Source: Cytidiella melzeri
Lineage: Eukaryota; Basidiomycota; Agaricomycetes; Polyporales; Irpicaceae
DNA: 64,000 nucleotides
Direction: 5' to 3'
Assembly: GCA_022592445.1 (NCBI GenBank)
Contig: JABYQR010000150.1
Span: 1 to 64,000, forward strand
Part shown: positions 203 through 42,363 of the stretch, piece by piece
Layout: every line of letters starts with the position of its first letter
Numbering within the stretch: position 1 is the first letter of the stretch
Position numbers and translations under genes: made by a program
Notes under the pieces: generated by a model
What the model was told of the DNA's origin: nothing
Databases searched by the model: none
Seen by the model: the letters and a program-made list of their open reading frames with translations, nothing else

Positions 203-3200
203 CTAGGCATCGAGTGCGTCCGCCGGCTCTTCTTCGTCCTCTGCCGCGTGTGCGTTGCTTAGCAGCTCGTCTTCATTGTCATCGCGTTGCGACTGCAACG
301 CCTCCATCTCCTTGAGCCGTTCTAAGGTGATCTCGGCAAAGCCGTCTGGCAAGGGAATTTCAGCGCGCGCGAGATATGAAATGACTCTAAAGGCTGCCAC
401 TGGCCAGTCCAACACCGCGCCGTCCAACTCGCAGAGAACGTAAGCTCCTCCTCGATTTCTGGCGACCACAATTAGCGGTCCGAGATACCGCGCGCGCATC
501 TTGCGGTTCAAAGCCTTCTCGATTGCAGTGTTGCAGAGTAGTACGAGCGATCCTCTCTTGAAGTCAAAGTCGCAGATGGTATGCACATGCTCGACCTTGA
601 ACCGCTGCGCTGCCTTAGTGCACGACTCCATGACCTTGTCCTGTAGCGCGACCAGATGCTCCCGACGCTTTTGTAGCGCGATTGCTCACCAACTGATAAG
701 GTCCTCAGTAGACAACACTGAGTCCGGCGCCGGCTGTAGGTAGGTTGCTTCTACAATGTCAAGCGGAATTATTGGATGCGTGCCGGTGACTGCAAAGTAA
801 GGGGAACAGCCCATCCGTTTGCGTGTTGTGATTTGCTCCGACCAGAACACCGATGCCGCGACCTGGGACCACCAACTTGCGTCCCCATCCGCCGCCTTAT
901 AGAGTGCCTGGCGAACATTGTAGTGAGCTCGCTCGACCTGTCCATTCACTCAAAAGTTGTAACCGCTGATTCGGATGTGATGAATATGGTAACGCTTGCC
1001 AAGGTATTCGATCGCGTTGACAAACGCGCCTCTGTTGTCCGAGACTATTTCCAACAGCGCGCCCCAGCGACAGAGAATGTTGGTGAAAATCCAATTGCCT
1101 ACTGTTTTCCCAGTCTCGGAGCAAAGAGCGCGGAACTCTGGCCAATGTGTGATTGAACAGCGCCCTTGTACCACATACTTGAAATCCCCAGACACTGGCA
1201 GGTGCATAGTGTCCATATATACTTTCGCAAAGAGCGGCGCCGGTTGTTGGACTGTCGGAGGAAGCAGAATCTGCCGCTTCTGTCGCGTCTGGCATATATG
1301 ACAAGTCCTGATGTACCACGCTATATCCGCTAAGTGAAACGGCCACCAAAAACGCTCTGACACCATCACGGCCGTCACAAAAACTCCTCGATGAGTGGCG
1401 CCGTTGTGGCAGTCGCGAAGTATCTTCATGCGCTCGGCTGGCCATACGACTAGCTTATGCGCTCCCGTGGCATCCCTTCGGAAGAGCCGTGCCCAGGAAC
1501 GCGCGAACCTTGGTAAGCAATTGACAAGGGCCCCAGTTGCGAATGGCTGCGACGCGATCCTCGCTGGGCTCCCGCCCGTGACGAGTGCAGCGATTCCCCA
1601 CAATGTTCGTCTCTGGAGCTATAATGAGCAATTTTAATGCAGAAAACGTACCGCCGCAGTATTTCATGCGCTGTACCACGCAGTTACAATTTTCGAAGTG
1701 CTCGTGCACAAAGACGCGAATGCCCGGGTTTTGAATAAGAACCGTCGGCCTGCCTTCGCAATCCGTACGCTTGTCTGCTGGTCCCTTGATGGATACATTG
1801 TTGATATACAGAATGGTGACGTCAGGAATCTCAGGCTGTAGAATATGCGTTACGTCTTCGTGGAAAATTGGCACCGAGTTCGTCCAGCCCATGGGTAACG
1901 TAGTCAGTTGCATCGCGCCGAAAGGCATTTGGAAGGTGGTCATGTCGTGCGACAATTCCGCGAGTGGTCGATTATCGTAACCCACGAACAGGTCCAGGAT
2001 TCCTCCGCAGGCGCGGCCACCAAAGCTTTCGGCAAGATGGTCTGGCATGGGCGTGACTCCCGAGTGCTGAATGGTGACGCAGTTTAGCGGTTCCAGAGAG
2101 TGTACAATGCAAAGCGCACCGGACTTCTTCGTGACCGGGAACCAGCGCGAGCGATAAGTGGTGTTTCAAGGTTTGTAGACCCCGGCCTTCATCTTCTCGT
2201 GTATGATCCTGCAGCATTTGTCATATATCCCAGGCGGTATTGGCTTGTTCCTTTTGACCCACAGGATGTGATTGATAACCAGGAATTTGACTGGCAGAAA
2301 GAAGTCCTCGCAAAACTTGCCTCGCTCGTCGTCGGACCACGCGAAAGTGTCGTTGTGTAGCATGTAGAAGTAGTGTAAAAGGTGACGCTCTTCTGGCCAA
2401 AGGAAGTCCCCGCTGTGGAGCTTGTCAACCTCGCGCATTTGTTCCTCAGTATAGCGTCCTCAAGGCACAAAGTTGGGGATGTTCGCATAGTCGATGACTG
2501 GCATAGTCGCGAGCAGGTCACTTTGGATAGCACGCACGATGCAAAACTTGCAAGGCAACGTAGCCTTGACGGGTTTCACTTTTAGGTGTACGGGTTTGTA
2601 CTTTTTCTTTGCACCTACAAACGCGTTGCGCATAGCAATAGATTTGACCCCCAGAGTATGCCAGGTGGTCGACGTGAGAGATGAGATGAGATCGAGAAAG
2701 GGAAGTTGGGCTAGCATATCTTGTAATTTTGTGTTTTCTGTTATATCAGTAGGTGCGGTCGAGAGAGAAGAGCCAAGAGTAGAGTATAAGTTAACCATAG
2801 TGTACACAGAGGCAAGGAAACAAGATTTGGGAGTTGTAGAAGGGGTATTATGGAGATCTCCTCAAGTGTTGCTCAAATCCTCGATTCTCAAAAATCCTTT
2901 TCGGGTAGGCAAAAACGAGCGGGACTGCGCGGTTGCGTCGGCACCGTGATAACCTTTTTCGTGTTTGGACAGTGCAGCGTAATTGTCTGGTCCTCGTTGT
3001 TGAAGTTGCGCACAACCGTGGACGCGATGACATCGAAGGGCCGTCCTAGAAGTATGTCATACGCGGTCTGGCGTATTACGTGGACCTGTAGGTAGAACAT
3101 CATGTCGCCTATGGTAAAGGGTACGTTGCACGCCAGGCCGAGCGACTTGTCAACTTTGCCGTTTGCACTTTGCATCTTGATGCGCACTGTAGGGTCATAA

Positions 3201-3563
3201 GTAAAACCCAAAGCGTGACACACTGCCTCCGACGCGGCAACAATCTGACAACCTGGATCCAATATGGCGTCAATCTCTTCGGTCCCTGCTACAAGCACGC
3301 GGACTGTCGTGAGCGCATGCGTCTCGCAAGCCGCCAAGAATGGTTCCGTGGTTTCGCCTGGCGGTAGAGCCCGAAGGTACGCCTCGTATGGATTGCCAAG
3401 TCATAGGATGTGTTTTGATTCAGCCCCATCAACGTAAGAGACCTCTGCTTGCGGTAGCACCACCTCGCCTTCCGCCTCAAAGAAGTTAGCCACGTTCAAC
3501 GGCCCCTGAGCTGGCGCGCGCTTCGGCGTGATGAGGTTGCGCATCCAACACCAGACCTTGTAC
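203..3563 (-). pseudogene. pol: Ty3/gypsy pol remnant (protease-RT-integrase)
   Basis: The minus strand reads protease (about 3337-2888), reverse transcriptase (about 2438-1455), integrase with an H-H-C-C zinc finger (TCHICQTRQ) and D..D..E core (about 1603-686), and an acidic tail ending at 203. It is dead. The protease active triad reads DPG instead of DSG/DTG. The RT motif normally YxDD reads YINN. Reading-frame breaks occur near 2170 and 1600. A TGA lies at 3403-3401, and another (GYNF-stop) precedes the integrase NGQVER motif near 949. The RNase H region is missing: the RT end (VRAFLGT) runs straight into the integrase finger region, so an internal deletion is likely. The 5' end at 3563 is not natural; it is the point where the KDZ element is inserted, and its frame continues the gag at 21544-23217. 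Confidence 0.88.
3560..3563. repeat. Left target-site duplication of KDZ element (GTAC)
   Basis: GTAC here and GTAC at 21544-21547 flank the KDZ element. Removing the element and one GTAC rejoins gypsy gag and pol in the same reading frame, which fixes the boundary to the base. Confidence 0.85.
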
Positions 3564-3613
3564 TGGTTTTATATATATATACTAGTAGACTAGAGGAAGG
3601 ATTGAAGAAAACC
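3564..3613 (+). repeat. Left terminal inverted repeat of KDZ element
   Basis: The end begins TGGTTTT followed by an AT run, then CTAGTAGACTAG (3582-3593) and ATTGAAGAAAA (3601-3611). It aligns base for base with the reverse complement of 21495-21543, with about 34 of 48 identical by eye. A further CTAGTAG lies at 3651-3657. Confidence 0.8.
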
Positions 3614-4015
3614 ATGGACCTAATAGTACAGCAGGCATTATTAAAAGCCTCTAGTAGCATTATATTCCTGTTTTCCTTCCGTATGGCAGCCGGTCCATAC
3701 CCACAATAGGTAGGTAGCCATCAAACCTGGGCGGCAATGGATCTATTTTCTCAAATACGCACCACATTCAAATTTTGACTACGGATAACCCTAATATATC
3801 CATTCTATAAGCTGATGTTACACTGTTATCCGCTACGAGAGCGAGAGGCGGGATGAGTACGGTGTGACCGCTCCCCGCGGAGCGCTTGTCCCTCATCTGC
3901 ACTCAGCGCTTATGCGCCGGGATTGCACACGAGCATCTTTTACCGCTCGTTCTGCCACTGCCACGTCGGCGCTGTCCCGCCTCGCATCCTTGCTGCTCTT
4001 GCCCTTGTTCTCCGG
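3614..4015. other. KDZ subterminal non-coding region
   Basis: No reading frame of substance is seen. It holds one more CTAGTAG (3651-3657), an AT-rich stretch, and then a GC-rich leader of the following gene. It probably contains transposase-binding sites and the promoter of the gene starting at 4016. Confidence 0.5.
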
Positions 4016-6171
4016 ATGGCGAAGCAGAAATCTTCAAAACCCCGTGGTCGCAAGAGCTGGGTCCCCAGCGGTAAAGCAGCATGGCTCGAGAGTTTCAAAA
4101 CCGACTGGGATGACGCTACAGCGAGTGGAAAGGCGACAAAATTCTACGACACGATGACCACAGCTTGGATACTTCGCTATGGCTACGATCTACCTCTCGA
4201 GCAGGATCCTCCTGAAGATGATATCATGGACGTGGCGCCAGTTGCTGGTGAAAAGGTTCCGGGAATGACTGGACTTTCGGAAGACGAGGCGGCAGCAAAG
4301 GTAGCATATTATGCAAAAGTTCGAACTGTAAGTCCACAGCTGCCACCTGTCTTGCCAATTCACATATCGTTATAGAAGTTGTGCATGTGGTATTACCACC
4401 GCTATCGCAAAGTTACAAATTCCGCGATGAAGGAGGAGGCAAACGTTTTGTTTCGCAAGATGACCAAGCAATCCGTTGATCAAGTGCGATGTGTGGCCGA
4501 TTACCACTTCTACCAGACCATACACTACGAGTCAAAGATGCGCGAAATGTTTGATCAGCAGTATGAAGAGGCTGTCGCGGCTGCGGTGAACAGTGACGAC
4601 AAACCATTGCGCCTCGCAATCCGGCAGAAGGTAGTCAAAGAATTCTGGGACAATGAGAGTCCTGAAGTGAAAGCACGTATCAGAGAGCTCGCGGAGGCCG
4701 GCTATCAGCAGCGGCTCAAGGAGTTCCAGGCCAATACTGATGCACCGGAGACGGCCTTGGATTTTGAACAGTACGTCTATACCGTCTACCATCAAGACCT
4801 GAGCTGATCCAGGCCAGATGTATCATCAATGCCGCACCATTTGTGAAAGCCATCGCTGAGGGACTGGCTGAGCGCACAGGCATGGTGGTTTCAATCCTGA
4901 TCGCTGGCCCAATCCCGTCTCAACAGGGCCGTATTGGTATGCGAAGGTGCGTATCCGTTTTATGGCCGCGTGCTTTACACTTACACCCATGCAGCTTTCA
5001 TTGCGGCGAGACGCCTCAGGCGTTTCCTTGACAGTGGCCTGAGTTTGACCCTGAGGGATTCAAATCCGTTGAGACCTCAATGGTCACCTTCGCATCTGCT
5101 GTTTACTCCGAGGACGAGCGTTGTCGTCGAGCTCTATCTCCCAGCACACCGTTGAGGGAACCTAGTCCATCTGCTGCCGCCAACGCTGAAGGCGAGCTAG
5201 ACAATCCGAGGCCGGTCCCATCAAGCGCTCCAGCCGTGCCTGGGGAACAAACCGGCACCTTCCAGCAGCCAGCGCCCTCGAGATCGACATCGCCTGCCGC
5301 TGACGTACCACCTGTTGAACCGCCGCCGCTTCTACGGAATTCTCCTCCCCCGTCGCCACCACCCGCAACACAGATTTTGGCCACAACACCAACACCACCC
5401 TCGACACAGGCTCCCGCCGTAACGCCGACAGAAACCATGCTGCCTGAACCATTGGGTGCATCTCGTACACCGCCAGTGTCTCAAGTGGCCCCACGGCTGC
5501 CAGCTTCCCCTTCCCGTGTAGGTGCAGATGCGAGCATCCATGCTTTGTCATCGCTGCCTTCTAACAGCGATGCACAGCCGCAGTCACCTATCGTTGCGCT
5601 CACAGGCTCGGACTGCCCCGACAAGCTGCAGAGCGCATACAAGCCAGTTGTAGAAGCCGTGTTCAACGCACCATGGACGGCGTGCGTGTCTCATTTCATT
5701 CGTCAGCAAGCAAAAGCCGGCTTCGACAACCCAAGGGGTAATATCTTGCCCGGCGATGGCCGCCCGGACGAGATCGCTGAGTGGTTCAAGCACGGCCGCC
5801 CTGCAGCTGGTCCTCGTATTCAAAGCCACTCCATGTTCTTGGAGAAGCTGTCCCAGTAGTGACAATCTATTCAGCCAGCCGTACGAGGCAGCGACAAGAG
5901 TGGTCGACCGGCCGGTACATCGCCGTCCCACTGGTCTAGTTTGATCAGGCCAGGTAAAAACGGCATATTCTTAATTCTTTGTGGTCTGTTGTGGGTGGGC
6001 AACACAATCTTCGAGCAAGGCCAGGACAGTATTCTTGCTGAGTGGTCTGCCCTCGTTGACGACGTGACGTGGGTCCTCGAACATGACACAGAAAGCGCGC
6101 CAATTCCCGGCACCAGTAAACGCCCACTCACCCAGCCTACCAGCTCGCCTCGCAAGCGTGCAAAGCGGTGA
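4016..6171 (+). pseudogene. Decayed KDZ cargo gene, uncharacterised mushroom-expanded family
   Basis: I recognise the layout of a large uncharacterised agaricomycete family, but no name or function. It has a basic start (MAKQKSSKPRGRKSW), a Trp/Tyr-rich region, an IAEGLAERTGM/IAGPIP segment, a WPEFDPEGF motif near 5035, a long Pro/Ser-rich linker (about 5110-5600) and a C-terminal PGKNGIFLILCGLLWVG...DDVTWVLE block near 5950-6080. Exons are about 4016-4327, 4376-4770, 4818-4946 and 4995-6171. In-frame stops break it: TGA at 5029-5031 (just before WPEFD, where CGA would fit), and TAG-TGA at 5857-5862, exactly where the family has two tryptophans (TGG TGG), so two G-to-A changes. The frame after the stops matches the frame before, so the gene was recently whole. 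It is the left-most KDZ cargo gene. Its start is the ATG at 4016, the first to give the basic N-terminus. Confidence 0.7.
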
Positions 6172-6402
6172 TTTCACGGCGCGTATCCTTCTCACATCTT
6201 CAACCTCATCGGGCACGTTCCCGCCGCCGCCGTTCTGCTCTGCCCGTGCTGTCGTTGTCTCTCTATTGTACTGCTCTCGTCGTTACATGTTCTGCTCGTT
6301 CCCTGCCGCGTACTCTCTTGTCGTTGTTTACTTTACAATCAATCTGCATTAACTCGAAAACACCGACATTGTGACCATTTATTCAAGATATACCACAAAA
6401 AA

Positions 6403-6915
6403 CTAAGACATCAGGCAGTTCTCCAAGTCCTCTACTGCGCGTTCCCTAGCCACTGTGAGATTGTTGCGGGTGACAGCAAGTCCGTTTGTCCGCGCATGTA
6501 CTGTTGCGATGGCGGCATCCAGGCGGCCGAGCTCAGCAGCAAATGAGGCTACTCGCTGTTGCCGAGCCTCCACTTCCTCTGGTTCTCCGCCCGGCATCTC
6601 CTGCTCCCAGAGAACACTCTGCTCCGCTGTCTCCAACTCATTGTCGGTAGAATTACGTTTGACAATAAGTTCGACTACATGCTCCTGCAGCGCGAGAAGC
6701 TCATCGTGAATACCAGCGATAGCAGCCTTGAGAGCGATAACCTTCGCCTTTAGACATTCCTCTTTAATAGCTACGTTCTCAGGCTCGCCTAATTCAAGAT
6801 CAATATGCGGTGCATACTGCGTCGGACTGATTGACTCACTGTCAGAGTGAACGCTCGACGCCGGTGATGTATAGGTTCGAATTGCAACACGTTCAACGTT
6901 GTGCGCAGCATCCAT
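6403..6915 (-). CDS. Coiled-coil protein, KDZ cargo, function unknown
   Basis: An uninterrupted 170-residue frame runs from ATG 6915 to TAG 6403. The first 45 residues are Ser/Thr-rich. The rest is Ala/Glu/Leu-rich with heptad-like spacing (KAKVIALKAAIAGI, ARQQRVASFAAELG, ARERAVEDLENCL), which predicts a long helical coiled coil. I see no enzyme motif. It converges with the decayed gene to its left. It is divergent from the two-domain gene at 12325, sharing with it a promoter that the copia insertion now splits. The lack of stops over 513 bases, in a region where neighbours are decayed, argues that it is real. It could mediate oligomerisation of an element-encoded complex; that is a guess from shape only. 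Confidence 0.6.
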   Translation of the reverse strand: MDAAHNVERVAIRTYTSPASSVHSDSESISPTQYAPHIDLELGEPENVAIKEECLKAKVIALKAAIAGIHDELLALQEHVVELIVKRNSTDNELETAEQSVLWEQEMPGGEPEEVEARQQRVASFAAELGRLDAAIATVHARTNGLAVTRNNLTVARERAVEDLENCLMS

Positions 6916-7094
6916 GATGGAGAAAGAGGAGTGAAGATCTTCAGTCGACGCGTACGCTAGCTGTTAAGTATCCAGCTATTGCCTCGCATTTGCCTCGCGG
7001 TGATCCGACACGCTCAAAAGCTACACGAATGTCAAAACAAACCAAACGCGTGATCTTCGTAATCAAACTCAGTATAACTCCGCTGAGTGATATC
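6916..7094. promoter_or_regulatory. Half of a divergent promoter, cut by copia insertion
   Basis: This stretch continues at 12228-12324 once the copia element is removed, giving about 275 bp between the divergent starts at 6915 (-) and 12325 (+). The right part holds a long CT-rich tract (CTTCTTTCTCTC, about 12280-12318), typical of fungal core promoters. No clear TATA box is seen. Confidence 0.5.
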
Positions 7095-7264
7095 TGTTTA
7101 ACTATTCTGTCTTCGTACTTAGCGCGCTTAGCGCCGTAGTTACCGTATATAAGACTTACTTTGATCAATGCACTGCTATCGCTTTTGATCCCCAACTCCC
7201 ACTGTGTGATCCATCTCAATCTTGCTCTCTCAACGCTTTCCTCTACTTGCATAGCCTTCTAACA
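7095..7264 (+). repeat. 5' LTR, copia copy 1
   Basis: 170 bp, begins TGTTTAACTATT and ends CCTTCTAACA. A TATATAAG promoter-like box lies at about 7145-7152. Confidence 0.93.
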
Positions 7265-7279
7265 GGTTATGAGCCCCGG
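7265..7279 (+). promoter_or_regulatory. Primer-binding site matching initiator tRNA-Met anticodon arm
   Basis: GGTTATGAGCCCCGG directly follows the LTR. Its complement contains GGGCTCATAACC, the anticodon stem-loop (CAT anticodon) of initiator methionine tRNA rather than a tRNA 3' end. This is the arrangement of Drosophila copia, which is primed by a 5' half of initiator tRNA-Met. The same site follows the 5' LTR of copy 2 at 29771. Confidence 0.8.
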
Positions 7280-7332
7280 ATAAGCTCTTTACCTCACTCA
7301 CATTACTCTCTGCACTCACTGCCCACCAGTTG

Positions 7333-10300
7333 ATGAGCTCTGATCCCACTGATCAGCCTCAACCTCGTCGTTCTACGCGCGAACGACACCAAACCGACTT
7401 TCTTCGAGGCACTATCCCTCGTACCACTTGCAGGAGACGTACCCCGGTCTTCACTCCTACTCCAACTCCTCCTCCTGCTCCTACTCCTCCTCATCCAATG
7501 TCTTCCGCTTCTTGCGCTGGTACCCCAGGTCCTGCACCTTCTGCTGCACCTTCTGACCATGCCACAAACGTCCCTACTACCTCTGCCGTCGCCGACCACC
7601 CATCCGCCCGCATCACGGCATCACGACGAGTCTCAGCACCCCCATCTGATCGTCGATGCACTCCATTCGACACTCTCCGTGACGACTTTGCCCGTCGTCA
7701 CACCACTAAACCATCGTTGGACGATAGCGACAATCCTATGGACGACGATGAGGCGCACGAAAGGCGAAGGGGCAAACTGCCCAGAGCTCATTGTGCGCTG
7801 TCCCCCTCGCCATCTGGCCCTACTGACTCCGCGCGAGCGGTGTCCTCCCTCCTTTCCATGCCTCCAAAGCACGACGTGGAGTATACTATGTCGCTTAGCG
7901 ATGTCCACAAAGCCTTTGCAGACGTTGGCAAACTTACAGGTCCTGATACCTGGCCGATGTGGAAATTCCGCGTTGATACTGCTGTGTCGACCATCGTCAA
8001 CTTCTACAGCTACAGGGGTGGTCTGACTATTCCTCAAGAGGTCCAACGGGCCGTCTTCAATGTCCTCGCGGGAAACATTGCAGACTCCATGATGGCGAAC
8101 TATCTCAATGAGACCGCGCCTCACAGACTGATGGAGAAACTCTCCGAACGTTTTGAACCAACTTCCACTATGTCGGACGCGAACAAAATCTTTCAACTCT
8201 TCTCCCTCCGCCGTCCTGTCCACGAAATGGACAAACTCCTTGATGATGCACACAACCTCTACTCAAAGATTTTGTCTAAGGGTATCGAATTCCCTCAGCA
8301 CATCTTCTACTCCGCCCTCGTCGGCATCATTCCCCCTGCCTATGCGCATACTCGTGCTAGCTACGAGGCTGGTGTGCGTTCCCGTACTCCTGCGGGCGAG
8401 AAGTACGACTATAACCCCATCTCTCTGAGCGTCGAGCTCCGCCGCGACTTCCATAGCTGGCAACTCGCTCATCCACTTGACTGCTCTCGGTCCAAGGGTT
8501 TGTCAACCCTTGTCCCTCGCGATAGGCCCGCTGGTGGTTCATCCGCCGTGTCGCCAGCAGTCGACAAACGTGTCGAACGTCCGGCGAAAGCCACTTCCTC
8601 CGCTCGTGCGGCCGCCGCTCCTTACTCTAAGGAGAAGTCCGTCCGTGACACTTCAAAGATGAAGTGTTACAACTGCAACGAGACAGGCCACACGACGCCT
8701 ACTTGCCCTTCGCCCTGGACAGAGAAGTCCAAGGAGGCGATGAAGAGGAAGGGTATCACCCGGAAGTCCGTTGCTGCTGGTGCCAAGGGCAAAGCTGCCA
8801 CTGCTGCCGCTGTTGTCACTACTCCCGCCGTCGCTGGTCCGTCGACCTCTACTCCTCGTCGCAACCAGAGCGCGTGGGTGTCGGCTCTCTCTGAGTCCGA
8901 CGTCACTATGCACGTGAGTACTTCACTTACTACTACTTTCCCTACTCTACTTCCGCTGTATGCGACTTTGTCAACAGACGAGTCGGTCCATATTCTTGAT
9001 ACTGGCGCGACTATTCACTGTACGCCGTATCGAGACTTACTTTTCAATGTCCACTCCGTACCAACTATTGTACTGACTGTTGCCAACTCAGAACAACTAG
9101 TTTTGAAACTCGCTGGTGACATGGTACTCGAGGTGGAACAGGAAAGTGGTAAGCTTACTGAACTCTTGCTAAAGAACGTATACTTCAACTCAACTCTACC
9201 TTTTACTTTAATCAGCGTTGGAAAACTGGACTCTGATTATTGTTTTACTTTTTATAACAATCTTTGTACTATATACGACTCAAACTCGACTTGTGTGGCT
9301 GTTGTTAGAAAATCAAACGATTTATACACGCTATCATCAACTCGAGTGACTTCTTTAGCAAGCGTGCATAGAACTGGCATTACTCTACTTGAACTACATA
9401 AAAAACTCGGTCATCTCAGTTACTTCATGATCAAGAAACTACTTCAGACTTCGTCAATTATTACTGATCATATAACTGACCATACTGAAACTCCGTGCGA
9501 GGATTGTTTACTTAACAATATCCATCGCAATACCGTACCTAAACTTTGTTCTTCATCGTTAGCTGAAGCTTTCGGAGATCACTTTCATATCAACATCTTT
9601 GGGCCTCTACCCACAGCGTCGATTACTGGTAAACACAAATACTGGTTGACTATCGTCGACAATGCTACTAGATGGTTAGTACTTGCACCACTAGTTACTA
9701 AACATGACGCCTATACTCAATGGGTCATTTTCTCTACTGAACTTTTGACGCAATATGGTATTCGTGTCAAGATACTTCAAGCCGATAATGACGGTGTCTT
9801 TACCAGTAAAGCTATGACTGCTTACTTAAAAACTCAAAGAACTATACTACGTCTTACTGTACACGATACTCCTCAGCAAAATGGTGTTTCTGAGCGTGTA
9901 CATCAAACTATTATGAACTTGATTCGAGTAAACCTGCATACTGCATCTTTACCAAATCGACTATGGTGGTACGCTGCATTATACGCGATGTATGTGTACA
10001 ATCGTTCTCCTCGTACTATACTTAACTACAAAACTCCTTACTTTAAGCGATATGGCACAGATGCTAACCTTGATGGACTTCAAGTCTTTGGTCAGCCATG
10101 CATCGTATACGACGAATATCGCACAAATAAACTAGCATCTAAGGGTAAAAGGGGAGTCTGGTTAGGCTCTGCTGAACACTCTAAAGGTCACTACGTTTAC
10201 TTTGGACAACGTGTCGGAGTTGAACGTAACTTGCAATTTGTTGACTCTACGATACAAATTGAAGGGGAGAAAGAACCAAATGTCGAAAAACTTACTACTG

Positions 10301-12059
10301 AAAAACAACTTGAACTTGAGGACAACCCTCACATAGAACCAATGGAAATCGACAAGCCTGACCGTACTGGTCCAAGGCGTTCCAACAGAACTCCTTAACT
10401 ATCGCGTAAAGCTCGTGGTCTAAACTACGACGAAGTAGACACTAACATTGCTTTCTACTTAACTGAGTTTAACGCTTACTATGCTGAGGACGTTGGTGAC
10501 CCTGTCACTTTCAAAGATGTACTTAATCACCCTCTTAAAGACAATTGGTTTAAGTCTATGAAACTTGAGGTTGATACACTAGAACAACTCGGCACTTGGG
10601 AATACTGTATCCCGCCGCCAAATGCCAACATTACTGGTTCTCGCTTTGTCTACAAGACTAAGTACGAACATGGTAAAGTTACTAAACTCAAGTCAAGACT
10701 TGTTGCACAAGGATACTGTCAGCGCAATGGTATTGATTACTATGCAAACAACTTGTTCGCTCCAGTTGCGCGCATGAGTTCTATGCAACTCATACTTCAC
10801 TTGCGGCTTCACTACACTTTGAGATTAACCAACTTGATGTTAAGTCCGCTTACTTATACAGTAAAATTTATCTTTGTCCGCCGCCTGGCGATCTACTGCC
10901 CAACTTGCCTAAGGGCTGGGTACTTAAACTACACTGAACTATCTATGGCCTTGGACAAGCTGGACGTTGCTGGTACAAGGTACTATGCGATATACTTTTC
11001 CAACTCGGACTTCAGCGTTCAGACTACGATAACGCTGTCTTCTACCTTTACAGGGGAGACAAACTAATACTTATACTTGCTGTTCATGTCGACGATATTA
11101 CTCTTTGTACTATTACTTCTGTCGTCGCTGAACAATTTGAGATAGCACTTAGACAACATGTCGAGGTAACAAACGGTGGCACTATCCACTGGATGCTTGG
11201 CATGGAGATTGATTACGACAAAGCCTCTGGTGTTATCAAGCTTTGTCAACGCAATTATATTCAAACTATACTGAAACAAAACAACTTTGACCACGATTAT
11301 ACACACCGTACGCCTATGATACACGAGCACAACTTAGCCCCCCGTGACTCGAAAGAACCTTGTCAGGATGCTGATGCTATTAAACAATACATGTCTCTAG
11401 TCAGTGGTTTACAATACGTTGCTGACTGTACTCGACCAGACGTTGCATACTGCACTGGTCAACTTCCACGATACTTAGCTGACCCTTCTAAGGAACACTT
11501 TGCTGCAGCTGAACAGTGTTACCAATACTTGAAGGGAACGTGCAATTACTGGCTTGTCCTAGGAAACCAAGCAACTACTACTAATAGTTCACTTGTCGGA
11601 TACGCTGATTCTGACGGAATGACTACATACGGCAATAAACCAATAATGGGCTATACTTTCACATACAACGACTCGCTTATCTCTTGGTCAAGTAAGCGCG
11701 GTTCACTTGTAACTTTATCAGTCACCGAAGCCGAACTGTACGCACTCGCTCATGCGTCCACAGAGGCCATCTATTTGAAGAGCCTCATAGATGAAATACT
11801 TAACTGCACTATGGACCCTGTCAAGCTGTACACTGACAGTGCGACAACTCTTGCAATTGTTCGTTCCCCCGAGGAACAACACTCTCAACGTACTAAACAC
11901 TTTAACATTCGCAAGAACTTCATCAGCAATTGTGTAACTAAAGGGTACATCACTGTGCACCACGTACCTTCTGCCGATCAACGTGCTGATACTCTTACTA
12001 AAGCACTACCTCTCGAAAAACTCAAGCACTTCAATGAACTACTTCATGTTCAGGCTTGA
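7333..12059 (+). pseudogene. gag-pol: Copia gag-pol polyprotein, copy 1 (disrupted)
   Basis: The start is the ATG at 7333. Domains in order: Pro-rich N-terminus; copia-type gag (about 7860-8460); CCHC knuckle CYNCNETGHTTPTC (about 8665); protease with DTG (about 9000); H-H-C-C pre-integrase finger (about 9390-9520); integrase core; RT with VDD (AVHVDD, about 11080); and RNase H with ADSD, TEAE and YTDSAT motifs. Breaks: TAA at 10396-10398 (CAA in copy 2), a frame change near 10797, and TGA at about 10936 in the downstream frame. The first integrase catalytic Asp reads HINIFG instead of HIDVFG as in copy 2, so this copy's integrase should be inactive. The C-terminal RT/RNase H frame is open from 11193 to 12059. 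Copy 1 cannot make a full polyprotein, and its recent insertion implies help in trans. Confidence 0.9.
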
Positions 12060-12066
12060 AGGGGAG
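12058..12066 (+). other. Polypurine tract, copia copy 1
   Basis: GAAGGGGAG lies immediately before the 3' LTR and overlaps the pol stop codon. It is the plus-strand priming site of LTR retrotransposons. Confidence 0.85.
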
Positions 12067-12227
12067 TGTTTAACTATTCTGTCTTCGTACTTAGCGCCGT
12101 AGTTACCGTATATAAGACTTACTTTGATCAATGCACTGCTATCGCTTTTGATCCCCAACTCCCACTGTGTGATCCATCTCAATCTTGCTCTCTCAACGCT
12201 TTCCTCTACTTGCATAGCCTTCTAACA
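12067..12227 (+). repeat. 3' LTR, copia copy 1
   Basis: 161 bp, identical to the 5' LTR except that it lacks one 9-bp unit (GCGCTTAGC). Confidence 0.93.
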
Positions 12228-12324
12228 ATAACTTTGATGTACCGTCGCCCACCCTTCCTCCTCCTCATGCCTCTTGTCTCCTTACTTCTTTCTCTCTCTT
12301 TTTTCTCTTTCTCTTCGTGCTTAT

Positions 12325-14104
12325 ATGTCCTGTCGTAGGACTACCGTGCATACCCCATCAGATGACTCTGATGACTCGGACGACGAGTGGGAATCAGTTG
12401 GCGATGTGAGCGAGTGGGCTGACAATAGCATGACACTCACGTTGTATCCATGGGACATGGAGCCCATCCAACGACCCAGAGGTACGTGGACGCATTTACC
12501 CTAGTATTTTTTTCTGATTATCGATTGTATTATCCACGACGAGCAGCTGAGACCCCTTCGCCATCGCGTTTGCCGTCATCTCCCACAACGCCGCCTCGCG
12601 TGCCTGACTCTTCACCAACGCCGACCTCTCGGCGCCGCCCATCTGCTACCACTTTAAGTGGTATCTCATGGCTATCACACGGTATCCAGACAGTGCAACT
12701 CCAGTCCGCGGGTGTGCAGGTAGACCGAAAAGACTTTATATTGTCACTGATGCCGCTATCCGAGGCTGAGCTAGCCCACGAACTATTGAGCTCTGCATCG
12801 CCATCTCCAGCTTCGGCTGCCTCACACACGTATACGGCTGCCTCACGACGCGCTGCACCCTCAACCTTACGCAACACCCATTCTTCACCATCGCCGCCTT
12901 TAAGCGCGGCTAGCTCATCACATACTCCCCCATCAAGTCTCACACACCATACATCTGGACCCACCGCTTCCTCCAACAATCTCTTCTATCGATCACATTT
13001 CCCCGTGCCTCAGGATGCCGCCGGGGCGGTGTCATCGCCGCACCGATCACCAAGCCGGCGATCGGCGAAAACTATGCACGGGCGTTCATCTAGCCCGTCT
13101 CCTTCGCGACCCGGTTCTGTCCGTCCCCTCCTTATATATACCCCTTCTGACCTCAGGACTCCCCAACCGTCTCTCCCCCGCTCTCCCACTCACTCTCCCC
13201 CTCATTCTCCTTCGCACTCTCTTCCCCATTCCCTCCGTTGTTCACCTTCTGTCCCCAATATCAATGTGTCCCCTCCGTTGTCATCTCTGTCTGCGTCGTT
13301 GTCATCCGTAGTCTTGTCATCGTTGTCTTCTGCTTCCCCATCGCCGTCTCCCTCGTTTCCCTTCCTCAACAATTTATGTCCTGTCTCCGCTATGGGTCCC
13401 GTTGGTTCACCTGTGGCAGCTTTGCCGTCGTCCAGCTTAGGTATTGATGGTTAGTCAGTCCTTGCATCGCTTATTCGGGGATTAATCGTTGCATATCTCT
13501 AGTGTCCCTTATGCCGGAGATCTATGTTGTGTCCTGGGGTTGGTCACCGGGTGTATATTTCTCAAGGTGAGTGGTACCTTTGTTGTGCCGAACATAATGT
13601 CTCAAACATCCGTAGATCTTCTGCTGAGCTGCACTGGCGTGATTGTCCTATGGCCGTAGTTGAGGTGTTCGAGGACGAGGACGACGCGCTGGTGGCTTGG
13701 GATAACATCCTGACTGACGTTACCTATTGTCGCTTACCTCGTCGAGGGCCAGGTCCAGATAGACGTGTGCATGAGCGTTTGGCGATCGTGCGCCCTTGTG
13801 TCTATCCTTATCTGTTCGGTGAAGATGGTGTTCGCAGGCGCTATATTGTGGTCTTTCGAGGATTGGAACCCGGTGTATATTCGTCATGGTGAGTGGCAGG
13901 TGGCGTATAGTTCAATGGCCGCAGTGCTGATGAGGTGTAAGGCTGGTTGCTGGCCCTCATGTCATCGGGATCCCGGGTGCTGTTTGGCAGGGGTATTCAA
14001 CACGCCCTATTGCTGAAAGTGTTTACGCTCGCGCGAAGGAGGATGGGATAGTGCACGCGCTGACTTTGTTATTCCCTATGCCGATCTCTTGTCTTCAGTT
14101 GTAG
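12325..14104 (+). CDS. Protein with two RNase H1 hybrid-binding-like domains, KDZ cargo
   Basis: Five exons fit one frame: about 12325-12481, 12547-13440, 13503-13566, 13616-13888, 13942-14104. The acidic N-terminus (DDSDDSDDEWES) is followed by some 300 residues rich in Ser, Pro and His. Near the C-terminus are two copies of a small domain with the signature YVVSWGWSPGVY and YIVVFRGLEPGVY. The second continues into V-IGIPGAVW and GYSTRPIAESVYARAKE. This pattern matches the N-terminal hybrid-binding domain of RNase H1, also called viroplasmin-like, which binds RNA:DNA hybrids or dsRNA. Each domain is cut by a GTGAGT intron directly after its PGVYxS motif, so the domain was duplicated with its intron. 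No RNase H catalytic domain follows. The gene is divergent from the coiled-coil gene at 6403. The last acceptor (AAG at 13941) is the weakest splice call. Confidence 0.65.
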
Positions 14105-15258
14105 TCTTGCTGTTGTTGTGTCTGTCCCTATGCCTATATGTTGGTTTTTTTGTTTTGAATGACAATTGATTTGCGCACTATTCTTTGCTTGCAAATGGGT
14201 CTAACCCTAACCTCAATGTATCTAAATGTGGTAATTTTGTGGCCAAAGCAGTAAGATTGTTGTCCCTATGTAGTGGAGACGAGGGAAGGCGAAGAGCCAA
14301 CAGTCCTTGTAGTGTTTCACTGTGTTCATCGACTCAAGAATACATCATGTAGGTCTTCAATGTCGGTTATGATACAGAGAGCTTGCCTTGCACGTCCTGT
14401 GCAATATCAGTTGAGGCGAGAGCGGTAGGATACTTGGATTCATGAAGTCGGGATTCGCGTTGTGAACGTCAGGTAATAAAGCAATTGCTATACCCTGTAT
14501 AGTCTTCTCATTTAGCGTATAGTTCTGCATAATGCTTACAGTAGCGTGGCTGACAACCATCAAAGAGACTGTAGCATGGTGAGGACACCCAGTGGAAGTT
14601 TGTTGTATGTGACGGCACATACACCTGAGACCACAGTGTTTCGCACAGCTGAAAAATCACTACAGATATCTATACTTCAGACTGTCCCACGTACTATACA
14701 AGCCACTATATTACCGTAGCACGTACTATACAAGCCACTATATTACCGTAGCATGTACTGCACAAGCCGTTATGTTACAGTCGCACGTACTGTAATTGAC
14801 CGGAAGAAAATGATGAAACGCGCGAGCTGAGCAGGTGCTTAGTGCTCTGCACATTCTCCCTCTCCATGTCTACTACCACACGCCATCTCAAATAGTCGGC
14901 TCTCTTTCATTCATTCTAGTGTTCTCCGACTTTCACAGTACGTATTCCTCTTTTATGAAGCTTTGTTTGAGTTTTTTCAGCGCACACGACGTGTGTCGGA
15001 TGGTTGCATACAGCGACCGTTCGACAGCGACAGCGCAGGTTTCGACGCGTTCCAACACGTATTCTGCAGCGTACATGATATGTACACTGTATTCTTGATA
15101 CTGAGCACCGCGAAGCGTCAACGCTGAACCTAACCAGGTACTACGACGACTAACCCGTTGCGTATGTGTCACTATTTTTTCCCCTTCACGGTTGCGCCTC
15201 CCTTTTTTTCTGAGAAGTTCTCGACGCTCACTCAAACTTTCAGCGCGACTCTACCGCT
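14105..15258. other. Non-coding interval upstream of TET/JBP gene
   Basis: No convincing gene is seen; open frames of 80-100 codons here show no family features. It contains a 32-bp tandem repeat array (14688-14795) and, close to the TET/JBP start, pyrimidine-rich tracts (TTTTTTCCCC near 15174; CCTCCCTTTTTTTCT near 15200) typical of fungal promoters. Confidence 0.5.
14688..14795 (+). repeat. 32-bp tandem repeats
   Basis: Two perfect 32-bp units (14688-14719, 14720-14751) begin CACGTACTATACAAGCC. A diverged third follows (14752-14783), then a partial fourth. Each carries CACGTAC or CATGTAC. They lie about 460 bp before the proposed TET/JBP start, so they may be promoter elements. Confidence 0.85.
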
Positions 15259-16790
15259 ATGGGCCATGCTAGGGTGGTCAGTACTTGGTCATCTACGTCG
15301 AGCTCTCGCAATAACCTTAATATTTCCCCAGACGCGCTCAGGCGCAGTTTTTTCGCCGTACCAACCAGCAGCTCGCAAGATGCGATTGATATCGGCTGCT
15401 CCCCAATGTTTGGGTGAAGGATGCGGTGGAAATTGAGGTACAGAGAGACAAGCAATGCACGGATGATGCAGAAGGCTGGCCGCTCGATTATTCCCCTTCC
15501 ACATCCCCCCTGTCTTCACCTTCCCCTTGCCGCCCAGCTCAAGGCCCTCCTCCCCGTCCATTACCGCATGTATTGGCGAAGAAGTGGGCGCGCCGGCTGA
15601 GAACGTCCCCACAACACAGCTTGTACCCGCAAGCAAGTCGGATTCTCTAAACATCGTGCGAAGAAGCGTGCAGAGCAATCGCAGAACAAGCTGCATGGGA
15701 AGGTACGCTCCAGCCAGTCCAAACGGTATCAATATTTTCCGCCATCAAGAACTCGTTCAACGTTTGGAAACTACCTGTGACTTTGACGGGGTTATCGGAC
15801 GAAGGTTTCCCGTGGATGCCAAGCACCGGTCTCTTCAAGATTACATTGACGAGGGGTACAGCGTTGTCGCATGGTCCGGAAAGTACGTACTTCAATTCTG
15901 TCATGCATATTGTACTTCTCTACGAGGGCCGGTCAAAGAACTTGGCGGAAGTCAGCTGCACCACGCGAAACGTCGTCTGCGATTCACGAAGAAGAGAGAC
16001 CGGCGCGGTTGGTTCTTGACCATTGCGACGGGGCTGTCATATGGCGGTGGTCAGACGGTGCGTGTTGCCACGCACTTTGTAGCCTCGGCTCACTATCTAC
16101 ACAGAAACCCGGTCTCCTTCGCCATTCAAAACATAATCAGAAGGTGCTGCAGGAGCTGCTGAATAACCCTAATGTGCGACGGGTGCTCGGATACGGTAAC
16201 AGTGAGTTTCCTAATACATTGAATGGTCTCTGGCTTACATTATATAGGTGCATTCCTGTTTTATTTTCCGAAGATATACGCGGAATACGCCAATAACATG
16301 GACGGCTTCTGGACCACCACAGAGCTTTCAACGTCCCATACAGAATTGGTCTTGCCGGGCGTCATTCAACTTCGGCCCTAACGCAGTGACTTTCCCTCAT
16401 GTAGACTCTGGTAACAAAGCTAATGGGCTTTGTCTGATCTTCTGTACTGGAAACTTCGATGCTACTAAAGGAGGCCACCTCGTGTTTCAGCAGTTGAAGA
16501 TTGTAGTGGAGTTTCCGCCTGGCTGCTTAGCACTCATTCCCTCCGCAACGATGATGCACGGCAACACATCGATTCAACCTGGAGAACAGAGGCAGTCGTT
16601 CACTCAATACGCTGCAGGCGGCCTGTTTCGTTGGGTACAATACGGTTTCCAGTCGTGGAAGGAGTTGGCAAAAGATGAGGACCGCCTTGCTCGGGAGATG
16701 GACCGGCGCGATACCAGATGGGCGGAAGCAGTGGGAGGATTTTCAACCTTGTCATCGTTGCATGACGATCGCGCACCTTTCTTGGTCTGA
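15259..16790 (+). CDS. TET/JBP-type 2-oxoglutarate/Fe(II) dioxygenase, KDZ cargo, possibly frame-damaged
   Basis: The catalytic core is clear. It has RRGWFL, GLSYGGGQTKPG, an iron-binding HVD (16398-16406), then GGHLVFQQLKIVVEFPPG, a distal His (MMHGNT, 16557-16559) and the 2-oxoglutarate-binding Arg of GEQRQSFTQYAAGGLFRW (16590-16592). This is the pattern of fungal TET/JBP proteins, which oxidise 5-methylcytosine or thymine in DNA. A likely start is ATG 15259. Introns are seen at about 15414-15471, after GGGQT near 16045, and after GYGN near 16200-16247. Compared with the family as I remember it, the frame seems to switch near 15790, 15890-15905, 15990 and 16305 without obvious introns. So the N-terminal half may carry small indels (a young pseudogene) or unrecognised introns. 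All core catalytic residues are kept. It lies 170 bp before the transposase gene, same strand. Confidence 0.8.
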
Positions 16791-16961
16791 TTTTGTGTAT
16801 ACTCTAGCAGGTAGTTTATGTCCTTGTACACTAAGCGCTTTAATAAATACTGCATGCATGTGATCTTGTTGACAGATCTACAGTCTGCGTGAGAAAATCC
16901 CATTCAGGCGTTAACACGTTTACACGCGCTTGCCTCGTTTATCCATCTCACCCCATGTACG

Positions 16962-19900
16962 ATGTCTAAGAGGAGGAAGACCAAGAAGATTGAATTGTAC
17001 GACCACAGCAAGGAGCAGGCCAAAGCAACAGCAAGCACAATCGACGTTGCCGGTTCAAATTGGTGTGTACGCATCACGAAGAGAGTGGTTGTTGCGAAGG
17101 TCAACACTCCCTCCTGACCTGACTGAGTCTTCTCATACTTCACCAGACCCTCCTTGTCATGGATGGCCTGACTAGCCCTTAATTTTCGCAATTTACCTCT
17201 TGTTTTTATCTATAAAACTCCGGGCTGCAGCGCAGTTGCAACCTTTCCTACATAAACTCTTTCGCACGTCTATTAAGCGCCCGTATCACGTGGCTTAGAC
17301 GCTCCACACGGTCACATTACTTGCTACTACGTCACACTGGCATGTGACTTAGCTTAAGTAACATCACATGGCTACAACCATATGGCTCAGCCCATAGCTA
17401 GGGTTTGACGTCATAGATACTGTCCACATGGGCTCCTTATTGTTCTTTCCTTATTGTTCTCTTTATGGAAGGATGTTCTCACAGGTGTGGGAATGGAATA
17501 CAATAGTTGGTCTCCTTTTAGATAGATTCTCTCACGGGTAGATCCTACTCAGCAGATCACGGAGGAGGACGTCGGAATAATTGTCGTCGCTACGACTCGC
17601 AAGAGGCGCTACATTAACTCGGTGAGGTACCGCCCATGCGACTTACTTCTGCTGTCCGCTCATTGCCTATATAGGACGCACCCCTTCTTACATGGCTGGA
17701 ATACCGGGACTCGTATCTGCAAGAAATGTTTCGAAGAAAAGGGCGAGGCTCTCAGCAACACTGTGTGTGCTGTGCACGCTGCGGAAAAGGCGGCGCCGTT
17801 TTCCGATGTCAAGATTGTTTTGGTGATGGCCTATTTTGTAAGAATTGCTGCGTTGACACGCATGCGAGCTCCCCTCTGCATAGAATGCAGGTACGTCATA
17901 TGCTTTCGCGGCCGGAATTCTCTGCTTACGTGCAACTCAGGAGTGGACCGGCCACTTTTTCCGCAAGATATCTCTTCGTGAGCTTGGCCTCGTAGCTCAC
18001 CTGGGCGAACACACAGCTGAGGCTACGTGCATCATGCCTCGACGGAAGACGCTGGTTGTCTTACACGTCAATGGAATACACCGAGTCGTGGTAGATTTCT
18101 GTGGCTGTCGGAATGACGTCGACGCCTATCGGCAACTTCTTCGAGCGTCGTGGTATCCGGCCACACCGTTGCAGCCTGAAACCTGCGCAACATTCGAGCT
18201 TTTGGAACTCTTTCACACGATGAACTTACAGGGTAATCTCACGGTGTACGATCTTTTTAAATCATTGGAGATGTTGACGGATGGGTGGAACTTGCTGGAT
18301 CTGCCCGTAAGTGACCCATTCTTTTTGTGACAGCTATTAATTTGCTTATGCGCTTCTAGGATCGACAATTAGCGTTCACGAACATGGTCCGGGAATGGCG
18401 AAACCTCCTGATGTTGATGCGCGCAGGCCGAGGCTACAAATCGGAAGAAATCGAGAAGACGCAGCCGGGAGAGCTCGCTGTGCAGTGCCGAGCATGCCCC
18501 CATCCGGGCATAAACCTACCAGAAAACTTTGAAGATGTTCCCGACCACCTCCGCTATCTCTATTGGCAGACAATAGCCGTAGATTGCAACTTTCGCCTCA
18601 AGAATCGTCATCGGTCAAGCAGTGCAATCGACGTCTGCTTGTCCCCTGGGTGGGCTTATTTTGTGGAGCATCAAGGATACCTAAGTCACGTCAAGCGGTT
18701 CGCAACTCAGGAAGAGGTAAGTGGCTACGCGTAGTACACCGCAAGCTAATCAATAATATGCACTATCCAGATGAGTACGTGCGCTGGGTTTCAAGCAATG
18801 TTGCTTGCGAACTTGAAGAAAGCGAAGGGTCTCAACGCAACGGGTGTGGTCGGCGTCGCTTGCAGTCGGCACGAGCACTGGAGGCCAAATGGTATGGGGG
18901 ATTTGCAACGCGGTGAAAGGTATGTCAGTATTGCATCCTTTGTACCTAAAGTATTGACGCATGGACAGACAGTGCAACGTTGACTATGTGCTACTCGCAG
19001 CCCTCGTTGGCGTCTCTCTTCATATGCTGATCACGTACGACATCGCGTGTCAGTATTTCAAGCTCTTTTGGTCCCGGATGCTCAACTTCCCACCCGCCAT
19101 GCAGCTCGGTATACCTGACGCAGGGCACATCACCGCTAAAGTCCCCAAAGGTCATATTCGTGCCCACGAGGATTCGTGCCAAGGGCCGTTTTCATTGAAC
19201 TACACCGACGGTGCGGCGGACACCGATGGCGAGGGCATCGAACGTCTCTGGTCCTGGCTCAACAAGGCAGCGCCAAGCGGGAAAGAAATGACTCAGGCTT
19301 CACGCCACGAGTTGTTAGACGACTTCTGCGGCTACTCCAATTGGAAGAAGACGCTCGGCCTGTCCAACCTCCTCGCACGTCGCATGCTGGATGCCATCAA
19401 GGAAGCTAAAACCCACCGGGAAGAATCGCGAGCTTTCGACGCTCGACTGCGAGAGCAAGTCCCGGATGCGGTGGAGCATTGGGAGCAAATGATGGACGAG
19501 TGGAAGGCTGATTCTCGTCGGCCCTGTCCATACGTCTCCGCTCAGGATAGTAAGTCATTGTGTACCTGCTCATTAATACCTGACTGACAAAGTATCCCAG
19601 GAATCACATTGAACGACGTACGCCTTGCCGTTTTGCGAGAGGACGAGCGGGACATGAGGGCCCGCGGCTTAATCTTGGACGCAACACCCGGCGCGTTTCT
19701 CTGCCTTGGAATTGAGATCGAAACAATGCAGTAAGTTGCCGCTGTTACTATGTACTTGCAGCCCGCTGATGTCTTTACTTTAAGGATGGCTCTACAGGCC
19801 GACATTGCCAACATCCCCTTCGGTAATGTGCTTACCGAGCTCAGCAGAGACGAGCGTCGTCGGGCGATTCGTCGGAAGATTATGGATTTTCGGCGCAAGC

Positions 19901-21260
19901 AGCAAACACAAATGCCTGGATTATACGTGCATGTTAGGTTCTCACCCGATGGCTCTGTCGATGACAATGTGGCACAGCAGCCCGAGGACATTCCGCTATA
20001 CATGCCATCCGCCGCCGCTATTCGCGCCTTCAGAGCAAACACCTGTGAGGCCAGGCTTCTCCAAATCGAGGAACAGCTTCGCAGCTCGCAAGCCGACGAG
20101 GCACTAAACGACTTGCGTCGTCACCTTCGGACACGCACCTTCGCCAACAGATACAAGATCAAGAATTTTGTTGGTCAGGCTGCCAACACTCGAGGACGCC
20201 AATGGCTTGCAGCAATCGATAAGCGTGCACTTGCTGCTGCGAAGCGATATCGACATGCACGAGCTGCCCTTTTGGAGCTGCGTGGCCCAGGCGATTGGGA
20301 AAAGACCCTGCGAGTACTCAAAGACGATGACGTTCGCTCGCTGAACGAACGAGTCCTCACCGAACAGGAGAAGATCGACCGCGCCAATTTACGACGGGAG
20401 GCTGGCATGCCCATTGAAGGTATACTCGGTCGTGCTTACGAAAGTGGTGCACCTATTGGTGAAGGTCGTCGTACCTTCTCTTGGATTTGGCTGACACCAG
20501 GCGGCCGCGAAGATTTTGACAACCCGGGGGTTGAAGAAGACCTCGGTGACCCCATTGTCCAAGAGAGTGAGTCTGTTTGACAACAGAGCGGCCAGCTAAT
20601 TAAGCATGCCCACTAGGTCTTCGGATAGAATGGGCGAAATCAAACGCGCGAGCTACTCGGTGGTGGGAGGCCGTCAACCTCCTCCACGAGGAAATGCGCC
20701 GTGCGGTGGCGTTTTGCCATTCAAGAAGTCAATGGTGGATGGATCGAGCCGCGAACCTCGAGGACGACATGCCCGCAGATGTACGCGAAGGCCTCTGTGC
20801 CTATGCGTTCATGAAAGCCGACGCCGAGACCCAAATGGGTATACGATGGGCCAACCAGTGGGAGCCGTTACAACACAGGGCCCTTGAATTCATGCAGCAA
20901 TACCCCATGTATGCTCAAGAAAATCCTGCTGATGAAGGCCCTGCTGCTCTCGCTCCCCCTCCCGCTCCCGCTCCTGCACCTGCCCGTGCTCTCGATCCTG
21001 CTCCCGCTCCTGCTCCTGCTCCCGCACCCGCACCCGCTCCCGCACCCGCACCAGCACCCGCTCCCGCTCCCGCTGCCGCACCTGCTCCCCCTCCCGCACC
21101 CGCTCCTGCTCCCGCCCGTGCTCTCGACCCTGTTCCCGCTCCCGACCCCGTACCAGACCCGGAACAATTGCCTGGAGAAGATCTCGTCCCCGGCCGTGTG
21201 CATCCTCTTACTATTGAACTGACCCTGGATGACGACAATCTATACGCCGACGATTATTGA
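16962..21260 (+). CDS. KDZ transposase with CxC2 zinc cluster
   Basis: From 17675 onward the gene is open through all exons: 17675-17890, 17941-18306, 18360-18716, 18771-18919, 18969-19549, 19601-19730, 19785-20566, 20617-21260; an exon ending at 17621 precedes them. The CxC2 cluster (CVCCARCGKGGAVFRCQDC, CKNCCVDTH) is followed by WTGHFFRKISLRELGL and VNGIHRVVVDFCGC. Then comes the RNase H-fold core typical of KDZ: MSTCAGFQAM, HEHWRPNGMGDLQRGER, LITYDIACQYF, VPKGHIRAHEDSC, and GEGIERLWSWLN with its catalytic-type Glu. An Ala/Pro dipeptide tail precedes an acidic end (DDDNLYADDY). The proposed first exon (MSKRRKTKK, ATG 16962) is separated by an odd 340-bp block and is the least certain part. 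No stop or frameshift is seen from 17545 to 21260, in contrast to its neighbours, so the element may be recently active. Confidence 0.88.
17190..17540. other. Non-coding block inside 5' part of transposase gene
   Basis: About 340 bp without coding character lie between the proposed first exon and the exon ending at 17621. The block has a TATA-like TCTATAAAACT (about 17209) and repeated CACGTGGCTT, CACATGGCT and CATATGGCT words (17285-17395). It may be a long intron, the real transposase promoter, or a small insertion such as a solo LTR. I cannot decide between these. Confidence 0.45.
20942..21154 (+). repeat. Ala-Pro dipeptide-coding repeat
   Basis: An array of GCTCCC/GCACCC/GCTCCT hexamers encodes repeated Ala-Pro within the transposase C-terminus, interrupted by two copies of an ARALDP motif. 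Both strands show long open frames here for compositional reasons only. Confidence 0.9.
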
Positions 21261-21494
21261 ACTCGCCGGCTGCCGCTATACCGCCTGTAGTATTCATATT
21301 GCATTTTCAGCTTGGAGGCATTTGTACCGTTTTTAGATAGCATTGGATCTCAAATCTGTACTGCTTTGGAATGTATTTCTTTTGCTGTAGCCAACTGTAA
21401 TATCTGTTTTTTATAATTGAATTGTACTAGCAAGCTTTTCTTAAAAGCAGCTAGTAGCAGCTTTTCTTAAAGGATGGCGCCTGAGCTACTAGTG
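21261..21494. repeat. KDZ right subterminal repeats
   Basis: AT-rich 3' region after the transposase stop. GCTTTTCTT occurs at 21434 and 21460, with a third copy at 21494-21502 inside the terminal repeat. CTAGTAG or its complement occurs at 21451, 21486 and 21519. The same words occur at the left end, so they are candidate transposase-binding sites. Confidence 0.65.
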
Positions 21495-21543
21495 CTTTTC
21501 TTCAATGGACCCGCTAGCCTACTAGTAATTTTATTTTAAATTA
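21495..21543 (-). repeat. Right terminal inverted repeat of KDZ element
   Basis: Read on the minus strand it starts TAATTTAAAATAAAATTA, then CTAGTAGGCTAG and CATTGAAGAAAAG, in exact register with the left end at 3564. Confidence 0.8.
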
Positions 21544-21547
21544 GTAC
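21544..21547. repeat. Right target-site duplication of KDZ element (GTAC)
   Basis: Second copy of the GTAC at 3560-3563. On the minus strand it completes the last gag codons (TTG TAC) before the KDZ insertion. Confidence 0.85.
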
Positions 21548-23655: not shown

Positions 23656-24059
23656 TGAGACACTGAGTCACGCTTCAAACTAATGACAACCTTAAAGACA
23701 ACACAACCAACCACGAAGTGGCAATAGAAGTGTAAAGGTGTGGAAGCGCGGAAGTGTTAAAGTGTGCGAGGTGGTCTTAGAGTCTTAGTTTTACCTGTGC
23801 TAAAAAGAGCGACAAGGTTTGTGATAAAGTTTATGTGAAGGAGGTAGACGGGCAACTACCACGCGTATTGCGGGTAAAAGGGAAAGTCGGCGCGGTGAAA
23901 GCAAAAGAGTTTTAGCACGGCTCAAAGAGAATGCGCGGGAGATGGCGCGACTTGTAGGAAAACGGCGCGCGGAGAGACGTGGATGGTAAACGCAGGCACA
24001 GTATGAATCTCGAACACAAAACGCGGTCGCTGGTGAAGAGAAGTAGTCGCTGTAAAACA

Positions 24060-24165: not shown

Positions 24166-24236
24166 GCCAAAGGAACCGTAAGAGAAGACAAGCTAATGGA
24201 GCGCGAGTCGCAGAGTAAGGCTATGTGAGATTGCAG

Positions 24237-40931: not shown

Positions 40932-42363
<1,432 letters not shown>

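Follow-up and report, generated by a model that had tools for sequence, protein, structure and literature searches.

The stretch of DNA analysed here (the window) is the initial 64 kb of contig C58 from Cytidiella melzeri (Irpicaceae, Polyporales), and the same assembly (49.7 Mb, 731 contigs) served as the genome for comparison. The window contains a gypsy element on the minus strand that is split by a KDZ transposon, as stated in a preliminary description of this DNA; gypsy domains on both sides and relatives of the gypsy element that are empty at the site bear this out. The KDZ transposon carries a transposase gene, a TET-like dioxygenase gene, further open reading frames and a nested Copia element. 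The coordinates are collected in Table 1.

Table 1. Features of the KDZ transposon, its ends and its gypsy host (window coordinates).
Feature	Position	Strand	Remarks
Host gypsy, protease/RT/integrase part	950..3400	-	Asp_protease_2 E=4.3e-8; RVT_1 E=0.0033 (below cut-off); Integrase_H2C2 E=6.8e-15
Target-site duplication CATCCAA (7 bp), left copy	3542..3548	.	12 relatives read by letters have a single CATCCGA/CATCCGG
Whole KDZ transposon as inserted	3549..21558	+	18,010 bp; other copies conserved up to these bases, flanks differ beyond; flanks adjoin in empty gypsy copies
Left terminal inverted repeat	3549..3614	+	begins CACCAGACCTTGTAC; 49/66 bases match the right end, ungapped
GTAC, left	3560..3563	+	left inverted repeat, bases 12-15; likewise in C183, C533, C637 and C534, which are inserted elsewhere (GTAG in C246)
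Accessory gene, function unassigned	3857..5859	+	ORFs 3857-4375, 4376-4807, 5032-5859; later part is a single 467-aa ORF in C183
Nested Copia LTR retrotransposon	7095..12227	+	Pol domains; LTRs 7095-7264 and 12067-12227
TET-like 2-oxoglutarate/Fe(II) dioxygenase gene	15953..16787	+	exon pieces 15953-16054, 16111-16209, 16323-16787
LTR-like repeat fragment, 388 bp	17155..17542	.	later insertion; full length at at least 33 other places, 95-98% identical (40 of 1307 candidates scored)
KDZ transposase	17884..19587	+	CxC2 zinc cluster ORF 17884-18330; KDZ pieces 18360-18734, 18750-18983, 18958-19587
ORFs 19735-20580 and 20604-21260	19735..21260	+	similarity of the first to sequence next to two other KDZ domains; second has an Ala-Pro repeat
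Right terminal inverted repeat	21493..21558	-	begins CAGGGGACCTTGTAC (reverse complement)
GTAC, right	21544..21547	+	within the right inverted repeat
Target-site duplication CATCCAA (7 bp), right copy	21559..21565	.	letters of the window and 12 relatives
Host gypsy, gag part	21559..23052	-	zf-CCHC E=0.027 (below cut-off); gag adjoins the left flank directly at 16 other gypsy places

The minus-strand reading frames of the gypsy element comprise a weak zinc knuckle (22030-23052) on one side of the insertion and an aspartyl protease (2888-3400) on the other, followed further left by a weak reverse transcriptase (1455-2165) and a clear integrase zinc domain (950-1618). The domain sequence on this strand, protease-RT-integrase, is that of gypsy elements. 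Beside the integrase region a minus-strand reading frame at 203-685 matched Recombination endonuclease VII barely below the cut-off (22.3 vs 23.6 bits, E=1.2e-4).

The transposase was recognized by a CxC2 match with an E-value of 1.3e-35, a cysteine cluster that precedes the KDZ domain as in the KDZ superfamily. The best piece of the KDZ domain (PF18758) had an E-value of 3e-32 and 112.5 bits against a cut-off of 26.6, which likewise places it in the superfamily; the other pieces yielded 0.00045, below the cut-off, and 4e-11. The pieces are spread over several frames, which fits short introns or damage. No Pfam matches were obtained for the accessory ORFs 3857-4375 and 5032-5859 or for the ORFs 19735-20580 and 20604-21260, and the 8000 scored candidates contained no homologue of ORF 12429-13454 at E<=0.001. 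The Ala-Pro tail of ORF 20604-21260 is encoded by an array of the hexamer GCTCCC at 20941-21161 near the right end. Elsewhere in the window a 285-bp unit is repeated in tandem (40958-42197, 4.4 copies).

The LTRs of the nested Copia element were identical at 161/161 aligned bases with one additional 9-bp indel, and the element is flanked by the 5-mers ATATC and ATAAC with one mismatch. It is absent from the KDZ copies in C183, C533 and C534, where a 5-bp overlap was seen at the site. The nested Copia is thus younger than the KDZ insertion and the order of insertions was gypsy, KDZ, Copia. The size of 18 kb given earlier is correct for the element as inserted, but it includes this nested element of 5.1 kb; once the Copia and its duplication are subtracted, the KDZ transposon has about 12.9 kb. 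A second Copia of the same family is located at 29601-34496, its LTRs differing at 8/171 bases. The 388-bp fragment in the KDZ transposon has matches in C723 to LTR-like copies separated by about 6.9 kb.

The TET-like protein was aligned with its homologues. Residues H51, D53, H104 and R115 were invariant across the 30 aligned homologue rows; by superfamily we take the first three to be the HxD...H iron ligands and R115 to be the arginine that binds 2-oxoglutarate. The window ORF had no match to Pfam Tet_JBP (PF12851). Among the 30 rows 10 matched this family at E<=0.01, and the best of ten scanned singly reached 30.7 bits vs a cut-off of 34.9. Searches of 16248-16790 against Pfam or PDB by sequence returned nothing of note, and no CcTET chain was listed in a profile search at E<=1. 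Because the sequence matches were uninformative, the assignment to TET uses the fold of a homologue. The modelled protein, P0061 of Irpex lacteus, is 70% identical to the window TET-like protein over 109 residues; its predicted fold was closest to CcTET and has the double-stranded beta-helix characteristic of TET enzymes. At all 7 TET-like loci found in the genome (7/7) a KDZ match was located no more than about 4.5 kb away. Scanning the genome with Pfam Tet_JBP produced 6 hits, none above the cut-off and none at the 7 loci, so Pfam alone gives no support for the name TET. These six sub-threshold matches (C298, C201, C117, C386, C396 and C442) perhaps represent another TET-like lineage; among the six contigs a KDZ match was present in C298 only, about 20 kb away. 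In addition, there is a second family that combines TET and KDZ (C16, C73, C368), with the two genes on opposite strands and copies about 96-98% alike; its left edge was seen, with no clean duplication.

The ends of the KDZ transposon were determined from copies elsewhere in the genome. The stretch 3564-3763 was matched at 7 places, window counted, 6 of which extended to its first base and one (C392) from base 37, and the stretch 21344-21543 at 4 places, window counted, in C78 by the final 56 bases alone. Outside of these stretches 15 further bases were conserved before the flanks diverged. On the left they read CACCAGACCTTGTAC in 6/6 ends including the window, with one change in C246; on the right they read CAGGGGACCTTGTAC (reverse complement) in 4/4 ends including the window, C36 and C582 matching at 15/15 and C78 at 14/15 bases. 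Sister-family copies in C723 and C549 start with CACCA at the position equivalent to 3549, and the sequence outside differs. The termini 3564 and 21543, previously thought to be base-exact, are therefore off by 15 bases at each end; the transposon ends with 5'-CA..TG-3'. A search with the pattern CANNNGACCTTGTAC found 21 places vs 5 for the reversed control: 8 ends of the KDZ family, 7 places (CAATAG...) of another repeat with conserved outside sequence and 6 single sites. This other repeat, with CAATAGACCTTGTAC (C23, C112, C143, C154, C169, C208, C331), has the 10 bases GACCTTGTAC in common with the KDZ ends and is conserved on both sides of them.

Divergence from the window copy was 1-2% for C183 and about 2% including gaps for C36. 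No second copy with both ends on one contig was found in the genome, several copies terminating at contig ends. In C723 the expected position of the right end is occupied by another LTR-type element, and comparison by eye of common 7-mers yielded no partner contig for C36. The KDZ copy of C36 (C36:106821-108305) likewise interrupts a member of the gypsy family that is split in the window, at the equivalent of window 1593, and those of C534 and C246 adjoin a repeat resembling window 23656-24579.

The two ends form imperfect inverted repeats. The inverted arrangement of the inner 48 bases, which had been reported before, was confirmed with 35/48 matching bases, a value attained by 0/100,000 random 48-base pairs from the element (maximum 30). 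In the outermost 15 bases 12 match, which 4/100,000 random pairs achieved. The most conserved blocks of the inverted ends are ACCTTGTAC and TACTAGTA.

For the empty site, the 400-bp flanks outside 3549 and 21558 were each searched in the genome on their own. The left-flank search gave 20 rows, of which one was the window, two were pieces of C124 and 17 were others, corresponding to 18 other gypsy places. Of these, 16/18 run uninterrupted through the site with one copy of the target, 14 as judged from coordinates and two from letters (C100, with a short deletion right before the site, and C36, whose right flank is absent from the right-flank matches); C394, which lacks a right-flank match, and C137, a 72-base fragment, make up the remaining two and are too incomplete to judge. 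The 12 gypsy contigs read by letters all had ...CATCCG(A/G)CT(A/G)CG... and no element bases. CATCCAA on both sides of the element in the window is what a target duplication predicts, and its sixth base, A, is absent from the 12 relatives, although this base is spanned by the alignments of C458, C504 and C721, which are more distant, and may thus not be private to the window. Hence the KDZ transposon has a 7-bp target-site duplication with a known empty site, as expected of the superfamily. The duplication was read directly at a single insertion, the window copy, since none of the other copies found has its two ends within one contig. The target 7-mers (n=11) showed no strict motif.

The preliminary description had set the element at 3564-21543 with GTAC as a 4-bp target duplication. 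GTAC is indeed present on both sides, and the gypsy frame is open when the flanks are joined there. Yet GTAC and 11 more bases are conserved in copies at other insertion sites and are lacking from the empty gypsy copies. Because copies at other sites keep their sequence outward through GTAC, we concluded that GTAC is a part of the terminal inverted repeat and not a target duplication. The join at GTAC retains 33 extra bases, 15 from the left, 11 from the right and 7 of the duplication, equal to 11 codons, and the element part of these was absent from all 12 gypsy contigs read by letters. The GTAC join and the corrected join are both open in the same frame; the wrong join kept the frame open by luck, since 33 is a multiple of 3. 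Frame, GTAC and inverted ends had been counted as three independent signals, which they are not, with GTAC located within the inverted repeat and the extra bases divisible by 3. Finally, it had been expected that an intact gypsy copy would contain GTAC once. The uninterrupted copies read ...GAGGTTGCG CATCCGACTACG..., and GTAC was absent from the junction of all 12 contigs read. The copies at other sites and the letters of the empty gypsy elements thus refute GTAC as the target duplication, and we give this reading practically no credence.

A duplication of 8 bp (CATCCAAC), with the left end beginning at ACCAG, would agree with the C that follows CATCCAA on both sides in the window. Duplications of 8 bp are described in the available portions of the literature for Zisupton and a Dileera family (Kojima 2025, PMC12730594) and for KDZ1 of Cryptococcus, where KDZ2/3 have 4-8 bp (PMC12810828). 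On the other hand, the base preceding ACCAG or ACCAC was C in 8/8 left ends read, yet the 8th base of the right flank was A in C36, C582 and C78, of which the right ends only were available. Because all left ends start with C and these three right flanks have A, the C belongs to the element and the duplication has 7 bp; we rejected the 8-bp duplication as very improbable. A chance or assembly-made juxtaposition of repeats instead of one inserted unit might be suspected from the fragmentation of the assembly (731 contigs) and from the several other copies that stop at contig ends. It is contradicted by the exact single-copy target in the gypsy relatives, the matching inverted ends and an identical 7-mer at the two borders that contains a base absent from the 12 relatives read, and its likelihood is smaller still.

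Taken together, we are highly confident that 3549-21558 is a TET-carrying, Kyakuja-like KDZ cut-and-paste transposon that inserted at the gag-protease junction of a gypsy element and was later hit by Copia. The present data show the termini, the imperfect 66-bp inverted repeats, the duplication, the empty site, the CxC2 and KDZ domains and the linkage to a gene for which a TET fold is predicted in a homologue. By analogy with the known families, the transposase would bind the inverted ends, probably at ACCTTGTAC and TACTAGTA, and the KDZ enzyme would move the element by cut-and-paste, cutting the target with a 7-bp stagger. The TET enzyme may oxidize methylated bases, by which the element could evade silencing.

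Among the known KDZ elements Kyakuja is the closest. In the portion of Kojima 2025 (PMC12730594) available to us Kyakuja is characterized by 7-bp duplications and CA..TG ends, and TET/JBP-carrying Kyakuja are reported in Agaricomycetes, Polyporales being among the hosts. The window element has a KDZ transposase, a linked TET-family gene, CA..TG ends, a 7-bp duplication and an Agaricomycetes host in common with them, and its corrected termini fit the pattern given there exactly. Two Laccaria Kyakuja families are described in the same portion without terminal inverted repeats, a description and not a definition, whereas the window element has a recognizable inverted repeat (49/66). Zisupton and Dileera belong to the same transposase superfamily; the duplications given for them in that text have 8 bp as opposed to 7 bp here. 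KDZ1-KDZ3 of Cryptococcus neoformans, as far as the available text of PMC12810828 goes, are KDZ elements of about 9-11 kb with inverted repeats like the window element, but they have CxC1 and inverted repeats of 139-241 bp instead of CxC2 and 66 bp.

Of the AG, PE and PU types of TET, the first two were compared with the TET-like protein by the published residue descriptions. According to the available portion of PMC12730594, AG-type TETs have G/S 5 residues and D 11 residues past the first iron-ligand His, and PE-type TETs have HxE in place of HxD. At the two former positions, counted ungapped, N56 and C62 were invariant in the 30 rows. The window TET-like family thus differs from the AG type in that text, the window protein lacking both AG residues in the ungapped count, and HxD in the 30 aligned rows sets it apart from the PE type. 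Because of the inverted repeats and the N and C residues we filed the element as KDZ, Kyakuja-like, on the basis of its ends and duplication, and did not file its TET as AG-type. A separate lineage is hinted at by the predicted TET fold with its HxD..H..R residues, by the lack of sequence matches to CcTET and by N and C occupying the two positions that tune substrate choice. We tentatively propose that the window KDZ family and its sisters carry a TET lineage of neither AG nor PE type, perhaps with a different base specificity, a suggestion that we hold to be possible but on balance doubtful. If true, it would represent a further TET lineage co-mobilised with KDZ transposons in wood-decay fungi.

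The element is an ordinary, well-defined addition to a published class; what deserves further attention is its diverged TET lineage. An open frame combined with a common 4-mer can displace the called boundaries by 15 bp per side. For a large KDZ element with a TET gene, the locus defines the termini to the base together with an empty site, and it supports the Kyakuja pattern of 7 bp and CA..TG in another host. The linkage of the TET-like gene to KDZ at 7/7 loci makes it a concrete candidate for how transposons resist methylation.
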